From: Rhodothermales bacterium | GTDB taxonomy: Bacteria > Bacteroidota > Rhodothermia > Rhodothermales > UBA10348 | Direction of reading: 5' to 3' | NCBI GenBank assembly: GCA_017643395.1 | Contig: JAEPNP010000001.1 | Location: forward strand, 1,865,806-1,929,805 | DNA length: 64,000 nucleotides | Shown here: piece by piece, positions 7,548 through 60,065 of the stretch | How the letters are laid out: every line of letters begins with the position of its first letter | Numbering within the stretch: the stretch's first letter is position 1 | The notes under the pieces: generated by a model | Databases searched by the model: none | What the model was told of the DNA's origin: nothing | Seen by the model: only the letters and a program-made list of their open reading frames with translations | Position numbers and translations under genes: made by a program

Positions 7548-8256
7548 GGCGCGGGCGGGTCTTCATCTTCTGAACCTGGCGAAGCAGCTGCTGCTCCTCA
7601 TTTTCCAGCGCTTCCAGAATGCGCTGGGCTTCTTCCTGACTCAGTTCTTCCGGGTTCTGGGGCTGCTGCTGCTGGTCCTGCTGCTGATTCTGGTCCTGCT
7701 GCTGATCCTGCTGGTCCTGATTTTCGTCCTGCTGATCCTGATTCTGGTCCTGCTGGTCCTGGTTCTCGTCCTGCTGGTCCTGATTCTGATCCTGGTTCTG
7801 TTGCTGCTGATCCTGGTTCTGCTGTTGCTCCTCGAGGCGGCGCTTCACGAACTCGTAGTTGAAACGCGCGTCCTCGTTACCGGGATTCTGGAGCAGGGCC
7901 TGCCGATAGCGCGCGAGACTCTCTTCCAGGGCCTCCGCGCGGAAGGCGGCACCGCCCGAATTGTACACGGAGGCGGCCGCCGCGTCTGATGACGTGGCCA
8001 GCGCCACGGCACCATCGAAGGCGTTCAGCGCGCCCTCGAAGTCACCCTGCCGAAAGAGAGCAGCGCCGAGGTTGTTGATCAGCCCGCTGTGCACGGCGTC
8101 AGGCTCGGCCGTATTGAACCCGGCCAGTCCCTGCCGGTAGGCGGCAGCAGCCTCTTCGAACAGGTCCTGCCGCATGAGCGCGTTGCCCTTGCGACCCTCT
8201 TTCTTGTCGTCCGGACCAAACAGGCCCAGGATCAGCGCTATGATGATGAGGCGCAT
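7528..8256 (-). CDS. batC: BatC-like TPR protein with Gln/Asn/Asp-rich tract
   Basis: A 242-residue TPR protein. The start at 8256 is chosen because it forms a TGATG junction with the batB stop and begins with a short hydrophobic segment (MRLIIIALILGLFG). Two to three TPR units span about residues 18-125 (FRQGDFEGALNAFDGAVAL and similar). About 55 residues of almost pure Gln, Asn, Asp and Glu follow, built from NQDQQDENQDQQ-like units, then a charged helical C-terminus (EELSQEEAQRILEALENEEQQLLRQVQKMK) as found at the end of BatC proteins. The low-complexity tract corresponds to bases about 7660-7835 and is the odd part of the gene; it may vary in length between strains. Confidence 0.85.
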   Translation of the reverse strand: MRLIIIALILGLFGPDDKKEGRKGNALMRQDLFEEAAAAYRQGLAGFNTAEPDAVHSGLINNLGAALFRQGDFEGALNAFDGAVALATSSDAAAASVYNSGGAAFRAEALEESLARYRQALLQNPGNEDARFNYEFVKRRLEEQQQNQDQQQQNQDQNQDQQDENQDQQDQNQDQQDENQDQQDQQQDQNQQQDQQQQPQNPEELSQEEAQRILEALENEEQQLLRQVQKMKTRPRRVEKDW

Positions 8257-16997: not shown

Positions 16998-17696
16998 TCA
17001 GATAAGATTGAAATAGACGCCCAGGGGCACGAACAGAAATCCAAGCCCGATGGCGGCGCCCAGAACGCCGCCTGCCACGTAGAGCGGTGCCGAGATCGAC
17101 GGCCGCATGGCGCCGATGGACTGAAGCGCGCTCCAGACGCCATGGCGCAGGTGCACCATCAGAAGCAGCATGACGGCCGTGTACCCGAAGGCATAGCCTG
17201 GAGACGCAAACCGCTCGCGCACCAGCTTGGCCAGGTCCCGGATGGGCTCGGCTCCATCGTAGGCTACCAGGTAGGCTTCGCTGGCGTTGCCGGGACCGCC
17301 GGGGCCAAACTTGAAGCTGGCCAGGTGCAGGACCAGGAAGCCGAGCAGAATCAGACCGGTGACGATCATCGAACGGGAGGAAGCGCTCTGGTAACTGGGC
17401 TTGCCTGCACTCTGGTACCGATCGTATCCGACAGGGCGGGCCTTGCGCTTGCCGAGCCAGATATTGATGCCTGCAACGATGTGGAACAGGAAGAAGGCCA
17501 GCAGTACGGCCTCAATCAGATAGAACAGGGCGCCGAGTCCGGTCAGAAATTCGGCGTACTCGTTGTATGCCTGATCGCTGGCCAGAAGAGCCAGGTTGCC
17601 CGTCATGTGGGCAAGCACGAAGCCGGTCAGCGCAAGTCCCGTGACCCCGGTGATCACCTTTTTCAGGACCGGGGATTGAAACAGCTTTTTCAGCAT
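16998..17696 (-). CDS. sdhC: Succinate dehydrogenase cytochrome b subunit
   Basis: Membrane anchor of complex II, 232 residues with five predicted helices, the single-subunit (type B, di-heme) arrangement of Bacteroidetes and epsilon-proteobacterial enzymes. Candidate heme-binding histidines are in [13 protein letters not shown] (helix 1), [16 protein letters not shown] (helix 2), [13 protein letters not shown] (helix 3) and [15 protein letters not shown] (helix 4). First gene of the sdhCAB(-small membrane protein) operon. Upstream lies the repeat-bearing gap that follows gltA. Confidence 0.94.
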
Positions 17697-17910: not shown

Positions 17911-18041
17911 GATGTGGAATCGAGGCCCCGGATTCCGCATCGGCGCCCAGCTGGCGGGTCCCAACGTGGAATTCGGGGCCGTATTCCACTCGGTGCCGCG
18001 GGGGGCGCGTAGCGACGTGTAATGCGGGGTTGGTATTCCAC
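17911..18041 (-). repeat. Three TGGAAT/ATTCCA hairpin units, locus 1
   Basis: Three inverted-repeat units at about 52-base spacing in the 556-base gap between sdhC and gltA. Unit A pairs 17911-17921 with 17931-17941 (10 of 11 bases). Unit B pairs GTGGAAT at 17966 with ATTCCAC at 17983. Unit C pairs GTGTAAT at 18017 with ATTCCAC at 18035. Loops are 9-11 bases and tend to contain GGCCCC or GGGG. Read on the gltA strand, unit B (GTGGAAT, loop ACGGCCCCGA, ATTCCAC, then GTTGGG) closely matches unit 3 of the locus after glsA. No gene is seen in the gap. Confidence 0.85.
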
Positions 18042-18064
18042 AACCGCGCGCCTTGGTGGGCGCT

Positions 18065-18234
18065 GCACCGGGCCGCCGCCGCACCGGGCCGCCGCCGCAC
18101 CGGGCCGCCGCCGCGCCGGGCAGCCCTCGCACCGGGCCGCCCTCGCACCGGGCCGCCCTCGCACCGGGCCGCCCTCGCACCGGGCCACACCGGGCCGCAC
18201 CGCACCGGGCCGCCGCCGCACCGGGCCGCACCGT
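18065..18234 (-). repeat. GC-rich 16-base tandem repeat after gltA
   Basis: About ten to eleven imperfect copies of a 16-base unit, GCACCGGGCCGCCGCC or GCACCGGGCCGCCCTC on the plus strand (GGCGGCCCGGTGC-like on the gltA strand). It begins 19 bases after the gltA stop and lies directly before the hairpin units. All frames through it encode simple Ala/Gly/Pro/Arg repeats without start signals, so it is treated as non-coding. Confidence 0.9.
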
Positions 18235-18252: not shown

Positions 18253-19380
18253 CTATCTGGGAACGCTGCGGGCCGAAGGGCCCACGTAAGCGGCCCGCGG
18301 CCGGATCAGTCGGTTGCCGTCCCACTGCTCCAGCAGGTGGGCCGTCCATCCGGCCATGCGACTCATGGCGAAAATGGGCGTGAAGAGGCCGCCCGGGATG
18401 CCGAGCAGCGCATACACCGAAGCAGAGAAGAAGTCCACGTTCGGGTACAGCGACTTCTCCCGGGCCATGGTTTCCATCAGCGTCGTGGAGAGCGTCAGCC
18501 AGGACGTATCTCCGCGCTCGGCGCTCAGGTCGGCCAGCATTTCGCGCAGGAATGTGGCCCGGGGATCGATGGTCTTGTAGACCCTGTGACCGAAGCCCAT
18601 GATGCGCTCCCTGGCGGCGAGCTTGTCCATGACATAGCGTTCAGGGTCCTTGCCGGAGGCGCGGATCTCGTCCAGCATCTCCTTCACCTTCAGGTTGGCC
18701 CCTCCGTGCAGCGGTCCCTTCAGCGCGGCAATGGCTCCGGTGACCGCTCCGTACATGTCTGCCATCGTGGCCGCTATCACCCGTCCGGCAAAGGTCGACG
18801 CGTTCAGTCCGTGCTCGGCATGCAGAATAAGGCAGGCATCGAAGATGCGGCTGGCCTGCGGACCGGGGCGCTCACCGTGCAGCATGTACAGGAAGTTGTC
18901 CGCCTCATTCAGGTCGGGATCGGGCATCAGGGGGCTCTTCCCGGCCTGGATACGGGCTATGGCGGCCACGATGACAGGCGTGCGCGCCACCAGGCGCACG
19001 GCCTTGCGAAGATTGGCGTCCCGATCCGGCGAGTCGGCCTCCCCATCGCTCAGGCCGAGCGCCGAGACCGCAGTGCGAAGCACCGCCATCGGGGAGGAGG
19101 TCGAAGGCGCGTGGTCCAGCAGGTTCACAACCCCGGGCGGCAGCGAGCGGCTCCTGCGAAGCCGGTCGGTGAGTTCGGTCCGCTGAGCCGGGTCGGGCAG
19201 ATCGCCGTGCCATAGCAGATGCACCACGTCCTCGAAGGTGCTGTGCCGGGCCAGGTCATCGATCTCGTATCCGCCGTAGACCAAGTGGCCCTTGGCACCG
19301 TCGATGTCGCTGATTCGGCTTTCGAGGGCGACGACGCCCTCCAGGCCGCGTCCGGCTGAGGAGGTGGAAGCAGTGCTCAT
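18253..19380 (-). CDS. gltA: Citrate synthase
   Basis: Condenses acetyl-CoA with oxaloacetate to citrate; 375 residues, the short form found in many Gram-positives, archaea and Bacteroidetes relatives, which also includes 2-methylcitrate synthases. Catalytic residues are visible in HAEHGLNASTF (His), GPLHGGANLKVKEML (His), GFGHRVYKTIDPRA (His/Arg) and NVDFFSASVYALLGIP (Asp). The N-terminus GLEGVVALESRISDIDG is also typical. The last residues after YVGP are a short non-conserved tail ending next to the GC repeat tract. With sdhCAB it covers two TCA cycle steps in this region, though the operons are separate. Confidence 0.93.
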   Translation of the reverse strand: MSTASTSSAGRGLEGVVALESRISDIDGAKGHLVYGGYEIDDLARHSTFEDVVHLLWHGDLPDPAQRTELTDRLRRSRSLPPGVVNLLDHAPSTSSPMAVLRTAVSALGLSDGEADSPDRDANLRKAVRLVARTPVIVAAIARIQAGKSPLMPDPDLNEADNFLYMLHGERPGPQASRIFDACLILHAEHGLNASTFAGRVIAATMADMYGAVTGAIAALKGPLHGGANLKVKEMLDEIRASGKDPERYVMDKLAARERIMGFGHRVYKTIDPRATFLREMLADLSAERGDTSWLTLSTTLMETMAREKSLYPNVDFFSASVYALLGIPGGLFTPIFAMSRMAGWTAHLLEQWDGNRLIRPRAAYVGPSARSVPR

Positions 19381-36509: not shown

Positions 36510-38213
36510 TCAGGAGCGGCGCTTGAACTGCTCCTCGACGGCGTTCGTAAAGTCGATGGCCGCTTCGTCGTAGATGTTGACCCGGTTTGCCCGGAAAATG
36601 TCCACGGCGATGATGTCGCTGCCAGAGCGCCAGTCGGGGGCGTCGCGCAGCCGATGCAGGGCTTCGAAGTACGATTCCGAGCTGCCGAGGAACAGTCGTT
36701 CGATGAACTGATCGCGCTGCCACGCCGCCGGGCCGAGCACGTCGAATTCCAGAGTTGCAGAGTCGGATTCGATGGGCTCCGGCAGGGTGGGCGGTGCTGG
36801 ATGCAGTTTGACCACCCTTGGCATCGGCTCGCCGTCCGGGGTCGAATCGAGCGCGCCGGACTGCGGTTGTTCGGGGTCCGGGTCGTCCGGCACACCCGTC
36901 ACGCTGCTCTGAAATCTCTTCCAGAGGGGCTCCGATTCCGGGAGGGGCTCGGGAATGGGCTCGGCGCTGCTGGCCTGGAAGCGCGCCCATAGCGGAATTG
37001 GGGCTTCGTCGATGGAGTCTTCTTCCGGTGGCTCAACGGATTCAATGTCCGTGATCGGGCCCATGGGAGCGCTCACGACGGAGAGTCCGATTCCTGGCGG
37101 TTCGGGATCGGGATCGGGCTCAGGTTCTGGCTCCGGCTCGGGTTCGGGCGCGGGTTCGGGCTCTGGCTCCGGCTCGGATTCCGGCTCGGGCGCGGGTTCT
37201 GGCTCTGGCTCCGGCTCGGGCGCGGGTTCCGGCTCGGGCTCCGGCTCGGGCTCGGGCTCCGGCTCGGGTTCGGGCTCAGGCCCCGGCTCCGGCTCGGGCG
37301 GTGGCTCCGGCTCCGGCTCGGGTTCGGGTTCGGGTTCGGGCTCGCGCTCATACTCGAGCTCCGGCGCGGGTTCGTCATCCCGAACAATTTCAGACGCGGG
37401 CGCCCGGTACGGACGTGCGGACGGCTGCGGAATTTCCGGTTCGGCGATGCCCCCATCGCCCAGGACCAGTGCAATCGCCGCATCGACCTGCTCGGCGGTC
37501 AGTGCCGCCAACTCTCTGGCCCGTGCGTATCCACGCACGCCGGAAGCCAGGCCGGCCCCGTTGCGGGCCTCGAAAAACTGGGTCAGGAGCGGAACGGGCA
37601 GCGTGCCGGCCTCGGTCAACTCGCCGAGTTCCGTGAGTGGGCCGACAAGGGCACGCCAGTCATCGCCCGCATAATCGACACAAAAGCTGCGATCGACGGC
37701 CTCCAGCGCGGTGGAAAGCGCACGACGAGTGACCTTTTTGTCACCCCCACGTTCCGCGAACGCGTCCACGGCCGTGCGCAGGTGCGAGTAGGGCAGGAAA
37801 TAGGCTACCCGACGGCGAACGTCCTCCGGAGACAGCTCCGAGCGCTTCTCACCAAACACAAAATGGATGAGGGTAGGCACCGGCCGGATCAGGTACGCTG
37901 TGACCAGATGTACGGCTTGCCGCAGGGCGCGCGGCCACTCGGACTCCGGGTAGTGCGCATATCGGGCCAGCACATTGAGATATGCAGTCCGCGCCAGGGA
38001 CACTTCTTTCTGACCATGGTCCACCCAACCCGGCGCAAGATCCATGATGCGGGCCGTCTCCAGTTCGAGTCGACGGTCCAGGGCGTGCTCCAGGAAATGG
38101 ACGATCGATTCCGGAACGTCGTGCCGCCTGAGATCCCGGCGGGATATGGGGCCCTTGTCGGGCAAAGCCCGCAAGAGCGCGCGGTATACGGCGTCCGGTA
38201 GGGTTTGGGACAT
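36510..38213 (-). CDS. Hypothetical protein with long Glu-Pro repeat
   Basis: A 567-residue cytoplasmic-type protein (no signal peptide) not recognised as a family. The start at 38213 ([17 protein letters not shown]) is chosen; farther upstream the frame overlaps the divergent gene. Residues 1-260 are helical with well-spaced hydrophobics. About 270-370 form an almost uninterrupted Glu-Pro (EPEPEP) stretch, with a few Ala, Gly, Asp and Ser breaks. Two short LWKRFQ/LWARFQ motifs follow, and the last 70 residues ([19 protein letters not shown]-like, then [24 protein letters not shown]) look folded. Glu-Pro tracts act as stiff spacers in TonB and others, which suggests two domains held apart (inference). 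Confidence 0.8.
37100..37356 (-). repeat. Hexanucleotide-like repeat encoding the Glu-Pro tract
   Basis: Degenerate tandem repeat of units such as GGCTCGGGCTCC on the plus strand, that is alternating Glu and Pro codons on the minus strand. The unit is six bases, so changes in copy number keep the frame. Interruptions with GCG or GAT units show it is not a perfect microsatellite. Confidence 0.85.
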
Positions 38214-57200: not shown

Positions 57201-57486
57201 GCAGATGCAGGGTCTGGCCTTTCACTGGGAGATGCGCATGCTGGAACAGGGTGGCTTCACTCCTCACGAGGCCCTGCGCTCGGCGACGCTTCACGGGGCG
57301 AGGTATCTGGGCATGGACGGGGACATCGGTTCCCTGGAGCCCGGCAAGCTGGCAGACCTGATCCTGGTCGAGGGCGACCCCTTGACCCGTCTGGAGGATG
57401 CCGAGAACGTGACGCACGTCATGGTAAACGGACGCTTGTATGATGCCACGGAACTGCCTCGGGGTGCCCGGGCAGACTCGTGGTAG
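54292..57486 (+). CDS. Propeller-amidohydrolase fusion with probable CTG start
   Basis: Exported protein of about 1064 residues: an N-terminal TolB/PD40 beta-propeller (repeated SPDGRTIVF, FSPDGSRIAFTSD type blades, to about residue 630) and a C-terminal amidohydrolase domain. Metal ligands are in GFVDAHAHASHFF (HxH) and later IEHNVPIAP and QVGSHGQMQG, with GSLEPGKLADLILVEGDPL at the end. The first ATG/GTG/TTG in frame is a GTG at 54409, which would remove the export signal. The in-frame sequence just upstream encodes RAIRQLPGLLLLVLVSTANAQ, a good signal peptide, and a CTG at 54292 overlaps the previous TGA by four bases. I therefore place the start there, with reservations. Probably a metal-dependent dipeptidase or imidazolonepropionase-like hydrolase. 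Confidence 0.85.
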   Translation: MTRAIRQLPGLLLLVLVSTANAQEKEAWDVSEAFGPTEEVSFTTDEGTWMSLDVSPDGRTIVFDMMGDLYTIPIGGGTATAITSGPAWDVQPSFSPDGSRIAFTSDRAGGDNIWTVAADGSDARQVTKETFRLLNGPAWTPDGNYILARKHFTSTRSLGAGEIWMYHASGEATAGLQITKRKNDQQDQGNEIALSPDGRYIYWSEDMSGGSTFQYSKDPNGQIYVIRRLDRESGRVDNYITGAGGSARATPSPDGKTIAFVRRVREKSTIHLFDTETGRQWQVFDGLNRDQQEAWAIFGVYPRMDWTPDGRSLVFWAGGGFHRLDFVDAVDFSGGETVHGVHSEIPFEVELTRTLHEALRVPVTVHEDSFTSRMIRDVATSPDGSTIVFHAAGYLYIKRMPDGTPRRLTSQTDHWEYDPAFSPDGRTIVYTTWSDEDYATIRRIAAGGGQSQPLTRRPGHYFEPRFSPDGAQIVFRRGGGSALRGRLHGMDTGIYRLNLSGGAPVLVTRSGSDARFGPRSTRIYFASGGGLSKSYRSVNLHGGDERTHFTMTYGANLVPSPDFEWVAFNELHNAYVAAFPRTGGEVSLNKDTKAVPVKQVTRDVGTDLHWSADSKSLHWVTGPEYFTRSLANSFSFMDGAPEELPAVDTTGVAVGLTLTADKPSGVTAITGARIITMRGDEIIEDGTVLVRDNRIEAVGTNVDVPAGATVIDAAGRTVLPGFVDAHAHASHFFSGPTPQESWVYSANLAFGVTTTHDPSANTETVFTLSEMVKAGRILGPRVFSTGTILYGADGDFKAVVNSLEDARSHVRRMKAVGAVSVKSYNQPRRDQRQQVMQAAREYGLNVVPEGGSTFQHNMTMIIDGHTGIEHNVPIAPLYRDVLETWRHSATGYTPTLVVVYGGPSGERWFYQHDNVWENERLLRYTPRDFVDPQSRRRWKSAENEYYHDEVAADARKLIRQGNLVQVGSHGQMQGLAFHWEMRMLEQGGFTPHEALRSATLHGARYLGMDGDIGSLEPGKLADLILVEGDPLTRLEDAENVTHVMVNGRLYDATELPRGARADSW

Positions 57487-58388
57487 ACTATGGCGGCATC
57501 CTCCAGGAGGTGCTGGAGGATGTCGCCCCGTCCCGGGGTCAGGGTGAATCGGCCGATTACATTCCGCCACTCGCGGACGTCGATCCAGCCCGATTCGGAA
57601 TGGCTGTTCGACTGGCGGACGGCACCGAGTTCTGCGTGGGCGAGGCCGACGAGCCGCTCTCGATCCAGAGTGTGTCCAAGGTCTTCCGTCTGGCCGCGGC
57701 CATGGAGCGGCATGGCGATGCGCTCTGGGATCGAGTGGGGCGCGAGCCGTCCGGGACCAGCTTCAACAGCCTGATCCAGATCGAAACGGAGCAGGGCGTG
57801 CCGCGCAATCCCATGATCAACGCCGGCGCTCTGGTGGTGCTGGATGCGATTCTCGATGATCCGCATGAGGATCCGGGCATCGCGTTTCTCAGCCGCTGCC
57901 TCGACGGTGATGCGGTGGGGTACGATGCCGTGGTTGCCGAGGCCGAGCGTGTGACGGCGCATCGCAACCGGGCCCTGGCCCACCTGCTCAAGTCGTTCGG
58001 CAATTTGCGCGGGGACCCGGACGCGGTTGTCGATGCGCACTGTCGTGAGTCGGCCGTGACGCTTTCGTGCAGGCAGTTGTGCCGTGCCGGAGCGTTTCTC
58101 GCGCGCGATGGGGTCACTGCCGCCGGTCACCGCGTGCTGCCCGACCGCCAGACCAAACGGCTCTGCGCCGTCATGATCACCTGCGGCGTCTATGATGAGG
58201 CGGGGGAGTACGCCTACCGGGTCGGTTTGCCCGCCAAGAGCGGTGTGGGTGGCGGTGTACTCGCGGTGCTGCCCGATGTGCTGACGGTGTGCGTGTGGTC
58301 GCCGGGGCTGAATGCCAAGGGCAACTCCCTCGCGGGGACGCGGGCGCTGGAGACATTCACGACGCTGACCGGGCATTCAGTGTTTTAG
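57480..58388 (+). CDS. glsA: Glutaminase (GlsA type)
   Basis: Converts glutamine to glutamate and ammonia; 302 residues, the normal length of the serine-dependent beta-lactamase-like glutaminase. The GTG start overlaps the previous stop by seven bases. The SxxK motif is in IQSVSKVF, preceded by FGMAVRLADGTEFCVGEADEPLSI, and GREPSGTSFNSLIQIE, NPMINAGALVVLD and VGLPAKSGVGGGVLAVLP follow, the last with the usual KSGVGGG. No signal peptide. Directly after its TAG the GC-rich tract and hairpin repeats begin. Coupled to an exported amidohydrolase, it may feed on glutamine from extracellular peptides (inference). Confidence 0.95.
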   Translation: MVDYGGILQEVLEDVAPSRGQGESADYIPPLADVDPARFGMAVRLADGTEFCVGEADEPLSIQSVSKVFRLAAAMERHGDALWDRVGREPSGTSFNSLIQIETEQGVPRNPMINAGALVVLDAILDDPHEDPGIAFLSRCLDGDAVGYDAVVAEAERVTAHRNRALAHLLKSFGNLRGDPDAVVDAHCRESAVTLSCRQLCRAGAFLARDGVTAAGHRVLPDRQTKRLCAVMITCGVYDEAGEYAYRVGLPAKSGVGGGVLAVLPDVLTVCVWSPGLNAKGNSLAGTRALETFTTLTGHSVF

Positions 58389-58542
58389 CGGGGCGGTGCT
58401 GGGCGGTGCCGGGCGGTGCTGGCCGGTGCGGCGCGGTGCTGCGTGCTGCTGCGCGGTGCTGGGCCGCTGCGGGCCCGGCGTTCCGGCCGGTGCGGGGGAG
58501 GCGGCCCGGCGCTGGGCGGCGCAGGCCGGTTTGCGGGGCGTC
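58389..58542 (+). repeat. GC-rich tandem tract after glsA
   Basis: Starts at the first base after the glsA stop. Degenerate units GGGCGGTGCT/GGGCGGTGCC of about 10 bases, becoming irregular after about 58450. On its strand it shares CGGTGC-rich composition and position with the tract after gltA. All frames give Ala/Arg/Gly/Pro repeats; treated as non-coding. Confidence 0.8.
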
Positions 58543-58850
58543 CCGGCGCCGAGCACGGCGGTTCTGCGCGTTCGTGCCCGAGCGAATCCGCCGCGATATG
58601 GAAAACAGGGCCCTCGTTCCACAAGTCAGCCGTCTGCGCCTGGTCCGATACGGAATGTGACGACGTATTCCACTTGGCAGTTCTCGGGTCGGGCCCGGTA
58701 GTGGAATCCGCCCCCGAGATTCCACGTTTGGGGGCGCGCCGGCGAAGGCAGGCGCGGCTGGTACCTGCGCCGGGGCAGGGCGTCGGGGCCCGCCGGGCCG
58801 CGCCGGGGCCGCCGCGCCCGCACCCGCACCCGGCCGCGCCGCGCCCTGCC
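58543..58850 (+). repeat. 308-base direct repeat, copy A, with three hairpins
   Basis: First of two tandem copies offset by exactly 308 bases (CGGAAT at 58651 and 58959, GTGGAAT at 58701 and 59009). It contains three hairpins at about 50-base spacing: TGGAA (58599) with TTCCA (58617), CGGAAT (58651) with ATTCCAC (58667), and GTGGAAT (58701) with ATTCCAC (58719). No gene is seen in the 759-base gap 58389-59147. Confidence 0.9.
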
Positions 58851-59140
58851 CCGGCGCCGGGCACGGCGGTTCTGCGCGTACGAGCCCGAGCGAATCCGCC
58901 GCGATATGGAATACAGGGCCCTCGTTCCACAAGGCAGCCGTCCGCGCCTGGTCCGATACGGAATGTGACGACGTATTCCACTTAGCGGTTGTCGGGTCGG
59001 GTCGGGAAGTGGAATCCGCCCCCGAGATTCCACGTTTGGGCGCGCGCCGGCGAAGGCAGGCGCGGCTGCGCCGGGGCAGGGCGTCGAGGCCGCGCCGGGC
59101 CGCGCCTGGGCCACCGCGCCCTTGGCACCCGCACCCGCCC
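58851..59140 (+). repeat. 308-base direct repeat, copy B, with three hairpins
   Basis: Second copy, nearly identical through the hairpin region: ATGGAAT (58906) with GTTCCAC (58924), CGGAAT (58959) with ATTCCAC (58975), and GTGGAAT (59009) with ATTCCAC (59027). Substitutions versus copy A are scattered; several are compensatory or improve pairing, for example ATGGAAT here against ATGGAAA in copy A. The GC-rich 3' part is shorter and ends just before the next gene. Confidence 0.9.
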
Positions 59141-59147
59141 GCCGCCC

Positions 59148-60065
59148 TCAATACCCGAGCGTGTACCGCTGCCACCCCTCGGCGGGCTGCCACGGGTGCT
59201 CCGGCTCGAAGAATTCCCAGAGCGCGGTGGCCACCTCCCGGATCAGCACGAAACCTTCGTTGTCGTATTCCCAGGACGTGTCTGCCTGCCCGTCTGTGAT
59301 AACCGTAAAGACAAAGTCGCCGGAAGGACCGTTCACCAGCACGACCTCTGAACGCGATTCCGACACAGCCCCCTGCTTGGACGCCGCCTGCACCCACGGA
59401 GGCAAGCGGGACAGCGCCTCGTCGTTCCAGTGAATCCGGGTGAGCACCCGGTACATCTCTTCACTGGCCGCGCGGCTGACCGCCGAGCCCTGCCGAATCA
59501 TGGTCATCAGCCGCGCCATCTCGCGGGGGGTGGTCTGACCCCAGCCGAATCGCTCCCAGTCGGGACGGCGATCGGGCGTTCGGGAGTTCATTCTGGTGGC
59601 CTCGAAACCATTGGTCGACAGCCATTGGTTAATGGCGATACCGGTGCCCGACAGGTGTTGCAGCCACAGGGATGCGGTGTTGTCACTGGTCGTGATCATA
59701 AGCATGGCCCCCTTGGCCAGCGTGACCGTCGACGAGTCCACAAAACTCCCCATGATGTCGACCCCGGGGTACAGCAGCGAGTCGCGATACACCAGTTCCT
59801 GATCCCAGGACAGCTCACCCCGCTCGATGGCGTCAAACGTGGCAACCAGGATGGGCACCTTTATCATCGACGCGGTTGGAAACAGCGAATCGGCGTTGAT
59901 GCCCGCCTCGACACCGGTCTGAAGGTGCTGCGCGAAAATGCCGACGCGACCGTCGAACCCCTCGGCCGCCTGCTCCAGGACGGCCTGAAGGTCGGCCGAG
60001 TCCGGACGGTTGCTGCAGGAGGCCATGGGCAGCATCAGGAACAGACAGAATGTGGCGAGGCGCAT
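59148..60065 (-). CDS. Beta-lactamase-like serine hydrolase lipoprotein
   Basis: A 305-residue predicted lipoprotein of the class A beta-lactamase fold (MRLATFCLFLMLPMASC, lipobox-like MASC). The catalytic SxxK is in LFPTASMIKVPILVATFD, SDN in LMITTSDNTASLWLQ, and SKQGAV takes the place of the usual KTG. The Glu166 region of true class A enzymes is not obvious (RTPDRRPDWERFG near it). Family members include beta-lactamases and D-Ala-D-Ala or peptide hydrolases, so resistance is not implied. The C-terminus is about 15 bases from repeat copy B. It is divergent from the second propeller protein over 146 bases. Confidence 0.88.
   Translation of the reverse strand: MRLATFCLFLMLPMASCSNRPDSADLQAVLEQAAEGFDGRVGIFAQHLQTGVEAGINADSLFPTASMIKVPILVATFDAIERGELSWDQELVYRDSLLYPGVDIMGSFVDSSTVTLAKGAMLMITTSDNTASLWLQHLSGTGIAINQWLSTNGFEATRMNSRTPDRRPDWERFGWGQTTPREMARLMTMIRQGSAVSRAASEEMYRVLTRIHWNDEALSRLPPWVQAASKQGAVSESRSEVVLVNGPSGDFVFTVITDGQADTSWEYDNEGFVLIREVATALWEFFEPEHPWQPAEGWQRYTLGY

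Follow-up and report, generated by a model that had tools for sequence, protein, structure and literature searches.

How REP-like repeats originate and spread is an open question, which has been studied almost only with RAYT enzymes. In REP/BIME elements and their RAYT transposases (TnpA-REP), i.e. the 'REPtrons', intergenic palindromes are dispersed in regular arrays and an orphan DNA-processing gene stands beside its own palindromes, as described for a known RAYT gene (PMC2817692); besides, palindrome families in one genome can be paralogue-specific and the neighbours of the gene are not conserved. Recognition of the REPs themselves takes place on the folded single strand (PMC8266576). Regarding another class of enzymes, BfiI exemplifies that phospholipase-D (PLD) nucleases can form covalent enzyme-DNA intermediates and act site-specifically (PMC4081073). 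A literature search, with most subscription journals outside it, returned no paper linking PLD proteins to REP-like repeats.

The dispersed palindromes reported here resemble those of REPtrons in their intergenic dispersal in regular arrays, the orphan gene beside its own palindromes, the paralogue-specific families and the lack of conserved neighbours, with a PLD protein as the orphan gene product and arrays or half-arrays by all six of its genes. They differ in that the enzyme belongs to the PLD superfamily instead of being a Y1/HUH transposase, that a GTAG head is lacking, and that the palindromes appear to be conserved as duplex half-sites rather than as stems, in a fixed triple array with 27-bp linkers. 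By analogy, the reading favoured here, and considered fairly probable, is that of a system akin to REP/RAYT in which an unrelated PLD nuclease would bind the arrays and perhaps disseminate them.

The stretch of DNA analysed (64,000 nucleotides, referred to as the window) belongs to the genome of a Rhodothermales bacterium (G000; 4.5 Mb, 21 contigs), which is a congener of 'Bacteroidota bacterium OFTM201' (G014); the features considered are collected in Table 1. Read on the gltA strand, the 16-bp GC tract (18229-18061) is followed by three palindromes (18041-18017, 17989-17966 and 17938-17914) at steps of 51 and 52 bp, which confirms the composite of a GC tract and three palindromes at about 52-bp spacing described in the initial annotation. 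In the window triplets, the palindrome unit is 24-25 bp long, namely RTGGAAT-N10/11-ATTCCAY, and the linkers measure 27 bp. The copy claimed after glsA is actually a pair of triplets, produced by a tandem duplication of 308 bp (58542-58760 / 58850-59068, 94%). As an exact pattern, GTGGAAT-N5-20-ATTCCAC occurs three times in the window vs. never in 100 shuffles. The GC tract does not belong to the conserved element, because it is seen with arrays in G000 only, where the GC content of the flank reaches 75.5% vs. 63.6% in the remainder of these loci; at the arrays of the sister genus (G017, 'Rhodothermales bacterium RX1_metabat.bin.83'), no difference in flank GC was found.

Table 1. Arrays and neighbouring features of the window, and positions of the HTH-PLD homologues by genome and contig
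Feature	Position	Strand	Details
sdhC, succinate dehydrogenase membrane subunit, neighbour	16998..17696	-	
Triple-palindrome array 3' of gltA	17914..18041	-	units 17914-17938, 17966-17989, 18017-18041; two 27-bp linkers
16-bp GC-rich tandem tract, ~11 copies	18061..18229	.	companion of gltA array in G000
gltA, citrate synthase, neighbour outside element	18253..19380	-	Pfam PF00285, E 1e-130
glsA, glutaminase, neighbour	57480..58388	+	Pfam PF04960, E 3e-98
10-bp GC-rich tandem tract adjoining array 2	58391..58464	.	
Triplet array 2a 3' of glsA	58598..58725	+	units 58598-58622, 58650-58673, 58701-58725
Triplet array 2b, tandem copy of 2a	58906..59033	+	units 58906-58930, 58958-58981, 59009-59033
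Class A beta-lactamase-family gene, far side of array 2	59148..60065	-	PF13354, E 3e-48
HTH-PLD homologues	G000 C1:1745006, C7:26584; G014 C110:45689; G017 C8:21209, C63:476, C51:3513		

Over the whole genome, 19 exact palindromes are found vs. 0 for the reversed pattern, and a sequence model of two adjacent palindromes (R1), built on 40 sequences, retrieves many more matches than the exact pattern. Arrays were called by a fixed script on regions fetched around the sites; in this way 52 arrays were obtained in G000, 50 of which are triplets, and these are intergenic, a predicted gene overlapping a single locus. Within 179 kb of array-bearing loci the array caller returned 47 triplets, and none on the reversed sequence and five Markov shuffles. 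A dispersed family of about 50 triple-palindrome arrays is thereby confirmed in G000, and the repeated genomic family proposed from two copies is borne out, being neither restricted to two places nor equally common in shuffled sequence. The geometry of the G000 arrays is regular, with 27-bp linkers in 91 of 102 cases, loops of 11-10-11 as a rule and a centre-to-centre spacing of 51.5 bp in most cases, i.e. close to five helical turns. As the outer half-sites are often ATGGAAT and the inner ones GTGTAAT or GTCGAAT, the half-site counts suggest that the whole array is roughly symmetric about its middle unit.

Regarding sequence constraint, the arms in G000 hold about 1-1.9 bits per position, the loops and linkers less, with linkers near background. 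Tandem copies differ at 2.6% of arm, 5.7% of loop and 14.8% of linker sites (p 7e-15), a contrast between arms and linkers that is biased towards the arms, partly by ascertainment, since arrays are recognised by their arms. The information content of the flanks does not exceed about 0.7 bits per position, and no GTAG or CGTC tetranucleotide head was seen in them; in G017, the flanks are longer and partly symmetric (GAAGTGGAAT...ATTCCACTTC), and an A- or T-tract lies inside the linkers. In G000 (73 distinct arm pairs), not one unit carries changes in both arms at positions 1-6, where about 8 would be expected, and pair counts on the alignment gave no compensatory change at core arm positions. 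Compensating changes would be expected of RNA or single-strand stems; because the arm changes are not compensatory, the constraint would appear to act on duplex DNA, and the arrays resemble sites bound by a protein on the duplex rather than hairpins of RNA. The hairpin reading of the initial annotation is consequently not supported, and RNA hairpins serving as 3' processing or termination signals are very improbable: both window copies do follow genes (gltA and glsA), but besides the lack of compensation, no Rfam match was found in the window, and tandem, convergent and divergent gene contexts are all present. As delineated with a simple codon-usage gene finder, these contexts number 23 tandem, 10 convergent and 4 divergent in G000, which speaks against a placement in 3' untranslated regions only, and 11, 7 and 4, respectively, in G017.

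The arrays are distributed narrowly. R1 matches four of the 27 genomes of the family, namely G000, G013 and G014 from one genus and G017 from another, and none of the other 23. When 84,980 species genomes, from which records very near the window may be excluded, were scanned for two adjacent palindromes, several matches per genome occurred only in G017 and G014; the remaining matches were single and nearly all without an array. Within this set of relatives, the gap between gltA and sdhC measures 556 bp in G000 vs. 178, 163 and 159 bp in G014, G013 and G017, respectively, where the array and the GC tract are absent. In G014 and G013, glsA is directly followed by the gene lying beyond the beta-lactamase gene in G000, there is no array 3' of glsA, and the fetched loci hold no match to the beta-lactamase-family gene near it. 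Because these orthologous sites are empty, the gltA and glsA sites of the window are most simply read as recent gains in the G000 lineage, parallel loss being the less simple alternative.

Linker similarity among the G000 loci is only weakly above that of shuffled sequence and little linker sequence is common to different loci, so no recent copy-and-paste is visible; without near-identical copies at different loci, the spread, if any, would be slow or old. Neither a target-site duplication nor an element boundary was seen for the arrays of G000, and terminal inverted repeats with target-site duplications were seen in neither G000 nor G017. In G017, some arrays on different contigs share units and flank; a permissive all-against-all BLAST was too noisy for full use. 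That the arrays derive from a classical transposon as its MITE copies, each array forming the element end, is rather improbable. In favour of this explanation, G014 has seven copies of an element of about 300 bp ending in a triplet and bearing CTAG at both ends; however, G000 and G017 show neither this 5' partner nor a CTAG flank or a common boundary. At the array end of the OFTM201 element a matching inverted repeat is lacking, and Pfam gives no match for what was taken as its transposase remnant. This element is more like a distinct, apparently unrelated mobile element with an array on board. Its copies in G014 (L041:614-900, L046:698-953, L051 and L058-L063) start with CAGTCTGTCGGACTT and end in a type A triplet, and at L046 a second related element begins at the CTAG after the second palindrome. 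An IS1182-type origin of this element was a guess without Pfam support and was discarded.

Comparison of array-adjacent genes across genomes yielded a PLD-domain protein, hereafter HTH-PLD, lying beside arrays in G014 and G017. Six homologues are known in G000, G014 and G017 (Table 1), the five others being 63-68% identical to the first. The gene was not found in G013, whose arrays are degenerate and whose genome is 88% complete in 630 contigs. Elsewhere in the family or in 245 genomes of the class, no homologue was detected at E<=1e-25; a phylum sample of 394 genomes gave only G000 and G017, viral contigs gave none, and plasmids gave only generic PLD proteins at 30-34% identity. The gene is thus present in three of the four array-bearing genomes of the family, a near-matching occurrence with the arrays, and the relation between array and enzyme is drawn from these four genomes in two genera. 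As for the acyltransferase that also stands beside arrays in G000 and G017, it is probably there by chance, about one coincidence being expected by a rough estimate.

The PLD (HKD) domain of HTH-PLD is the C-terminal one; PF13091 matches all six proteins (best 2e-17), and their HKD motif (HxKx4D) is invariant, with H139, K141, D146 and N151. The N-terminal region is conserved, with three predicted helices, and gives weak Pfam matches to HTH families (Sigma70_r4_2 at 0.006, AsnC-type at 0.08); it is a putative helix-turn-helix. The structure model has a pLDDT of 55 overall and 72-86 for the N-terminal helices, too weak to confirm the PLD fold, and a Foldseek search with this low-confidence model gave TrmBL2 as best match at E 0.025, with none under 0.001. 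A helix-turn-helix fused to a PLD-like fold would recall TrmB/TrmBL2, in line with the weak Pfam and Foldseek matches, but the HKD residues are invariant in HTH-PLD; to our knowledge, TrmB proteins lack them. The best family matches of the PLD domain are DpdK (3e-11) and DrmC of DISARM (1e-8) with PADLOC, and DrmC (2e-13) with NCBIfam; contrary to these families, HTH-PLD falls below the curated NCBIfam cut-offs. Its assignment as a DISARM DrmC was rejected at 50.6 bits vs. a cut-off of 133, with unrelated neighbours. Among the neighbours examined, which are not conserved, there are no DISARM, Dpd or methyltransferase partner genes. The BfiI/Nuc-type PLD nucleases are comparable in having a single HKD domain, together with a DNA-binding domain as proposed for HTH-PLD, and likely a dimer with one active site, but HTH-PLD has another putative DNA-binding domain at the opposite end (C-terminal and B3-like in BfiI), lacks a methyltransferase partner among the neighbours examined, and is associated with many genomic sites.

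Mobilisation of REP/BIME elements by a RAYT (Y1/HUH) transposase, the guess made at first, is hardly credible, and it is already refuted for G000 unless the assembly missed a Y1 gene. The intergenic dispersal of palindromes in modular arrays is what it would predict, as is the adjacency of a RAYT gene to its own palindromes (PMC2817692), but PF01797, i.e. the RAYT-type Y1 transposase, is absent from G000, G013 and the sister-genus array genome G017, there is neither a GTAG/CGTC head nor a conserved flank, and substitutions in the arms do not compensate each other, in contrast to REPs, whose recognition takes place on a folded single strand (PMC8266576). The likeness to REP/BIME elements is supported by intergenic dispersal and empty orthologous sites, the RAYT enzyme being unsupported. 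Three Y1 transposase genes do occur in G014 (C117:2870, C4:47173 and C86:8409) and are lacking in G000.

Each of the six HTH-PLD gene copies has an array or half-array of 52-bp period within about 300 bp. A type A triplet lies immediately upstream of the gene in G000 C1 and G014, and about 170 bp downstream of it in G017 C8. At G017 C63, the upstream three-unit repeat of 52-bp period is made of GTTGAAT half-sites; at G000 C7, a degraded GTT[C/G]-type triplet lies upstream and its last unit contains the probable start codon; at G017 C51, CGATGTAT is found upstream at two places 52 bp apart, which amounts to two half-sites only. The pairing in G014 and G017 C8 was part of the discovery, while G000 C1 and the other copies constitute an independent test; the genome fraction within 300 bp of a fetched array is 0.7% in G000 and 0.5% in G017; adjacency probabilities are approximate. 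At other loci, GTTGAAT palindromes are again present in G000, G013 and G017, and no other genome of the family has them, with arrays of the same period elsewhere in G017 and G013 and a related array in G000. The putative recognition helix reads SNVY for type A, ANVY for type B and SNVH for the third half-site type; over six proteins, this tracking of half-site type by recognition-helix residues is suggestive only.

The simplest account of this pairing would be that the protein reads the palindromes as duplex DNA and that its own gene carries its site. What we infer for HTH-PLD encompasses the HTH fold, array binding, nuclease activity, mobilisation and autoregulation. A dimer would read each RTGGAAT/ATTCCAY palindrome as double-stranded DNA, and, because the centres are about 51.5 bp apart, close to five turns, three dimers might sit on one helix face per array. 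The HKD domain might then nick, or cut and rejoin, DNA at or near the arrays, whereby new arrays could be seeded into intergenic DNA over evolutionary time, as is thought for RAYT and REPs; besides, an array over the start region of the HTH-PLD gene would permit self-repression. It is because the catalytic motif is intact, gains are lineage-specific and REPtrons offer an analogy that cutting and spreading of the arrays by HTH-PLD are proposed.

A more conservative explanation holds the arrays to be fixed chromosomal binding sites with a nucleoid, segregation or regulatory role, HTH-PLD being only a DNA-binding factor or regulator that mobilises nothing. It is unlikely, though a serious contender: the linkers have diverged between arms that are conserved together with their spacing, the HTH-PLD start region is overlapped or directly adjoined by an array in G000 C1, G014 and G000 C7, which suggests autoregulation, and the best Foldseek match of the weak model, TrmBL2 (E 0.025), is an archaeal chromatin protein. 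Fixed sites would, however, leave unexplained the intact, invariant HKD catalytic residues, the gain of arrays lineage by lineage and the convergent contexts (10/37) without a promoter to regulate. At the other extreme, the PLD enzyme could be a dedicated recombinase that spreads its own phased arrays, presumably via a phosphohistidine-DNA intermediate, with half-sites specific to each paralogue (GTGGAAT, GTTGAAT and CGATGTAT). This remains doubtful; if true, such a recombinase would mobilise DNA by a system that has no relation to the HUH, DDE, tyrosine or serine enzymes.

Should the favoured REP/RAYT-like reading be true, a second, unrelated enzyme class would be tied to dispersed palindromes, the association being then convergent, and a small protein with a short DNA target would be at hand for direct tests, while a further use would be added to those known for PLD nucleases. 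Phased triple sites of 128 bp bound genome-wide by a nuclease-like protein would be unusual even in the case of fixed binding sites.

Some further repeats were encountered along the way. A 51-bp tandem array of a second palindrome type, with GTTCAAA/GTTGAAT half-sites, lies at L174:1276-1453 (G000 C1, ~2082.3 kb), and another 51-bp tandem array of GTTCAAA/GTTGAAT type at L136:2924-3131 (G000 C5), close to a type A array. At L069 and L076 in G017, type A palindromes are mixed with other inverted repeats, e.g. CGAATATGTCGA...TCGACATATTCG, possibly of the third half-site type. At L018 and L024 in G000, a GC-rich sequence with CAAGGCG / CAACGCCG motifs is present downstream of the array in each case and has the look of a further dispersed repeat. 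The window itself also contains about 45 copies of a 6-base (TCGGGC-like) unit in tandem at 37102-37374 and, at 7666-7824, a CTG-rich tandem repeat in which several periods (12-54 bases) overlap.
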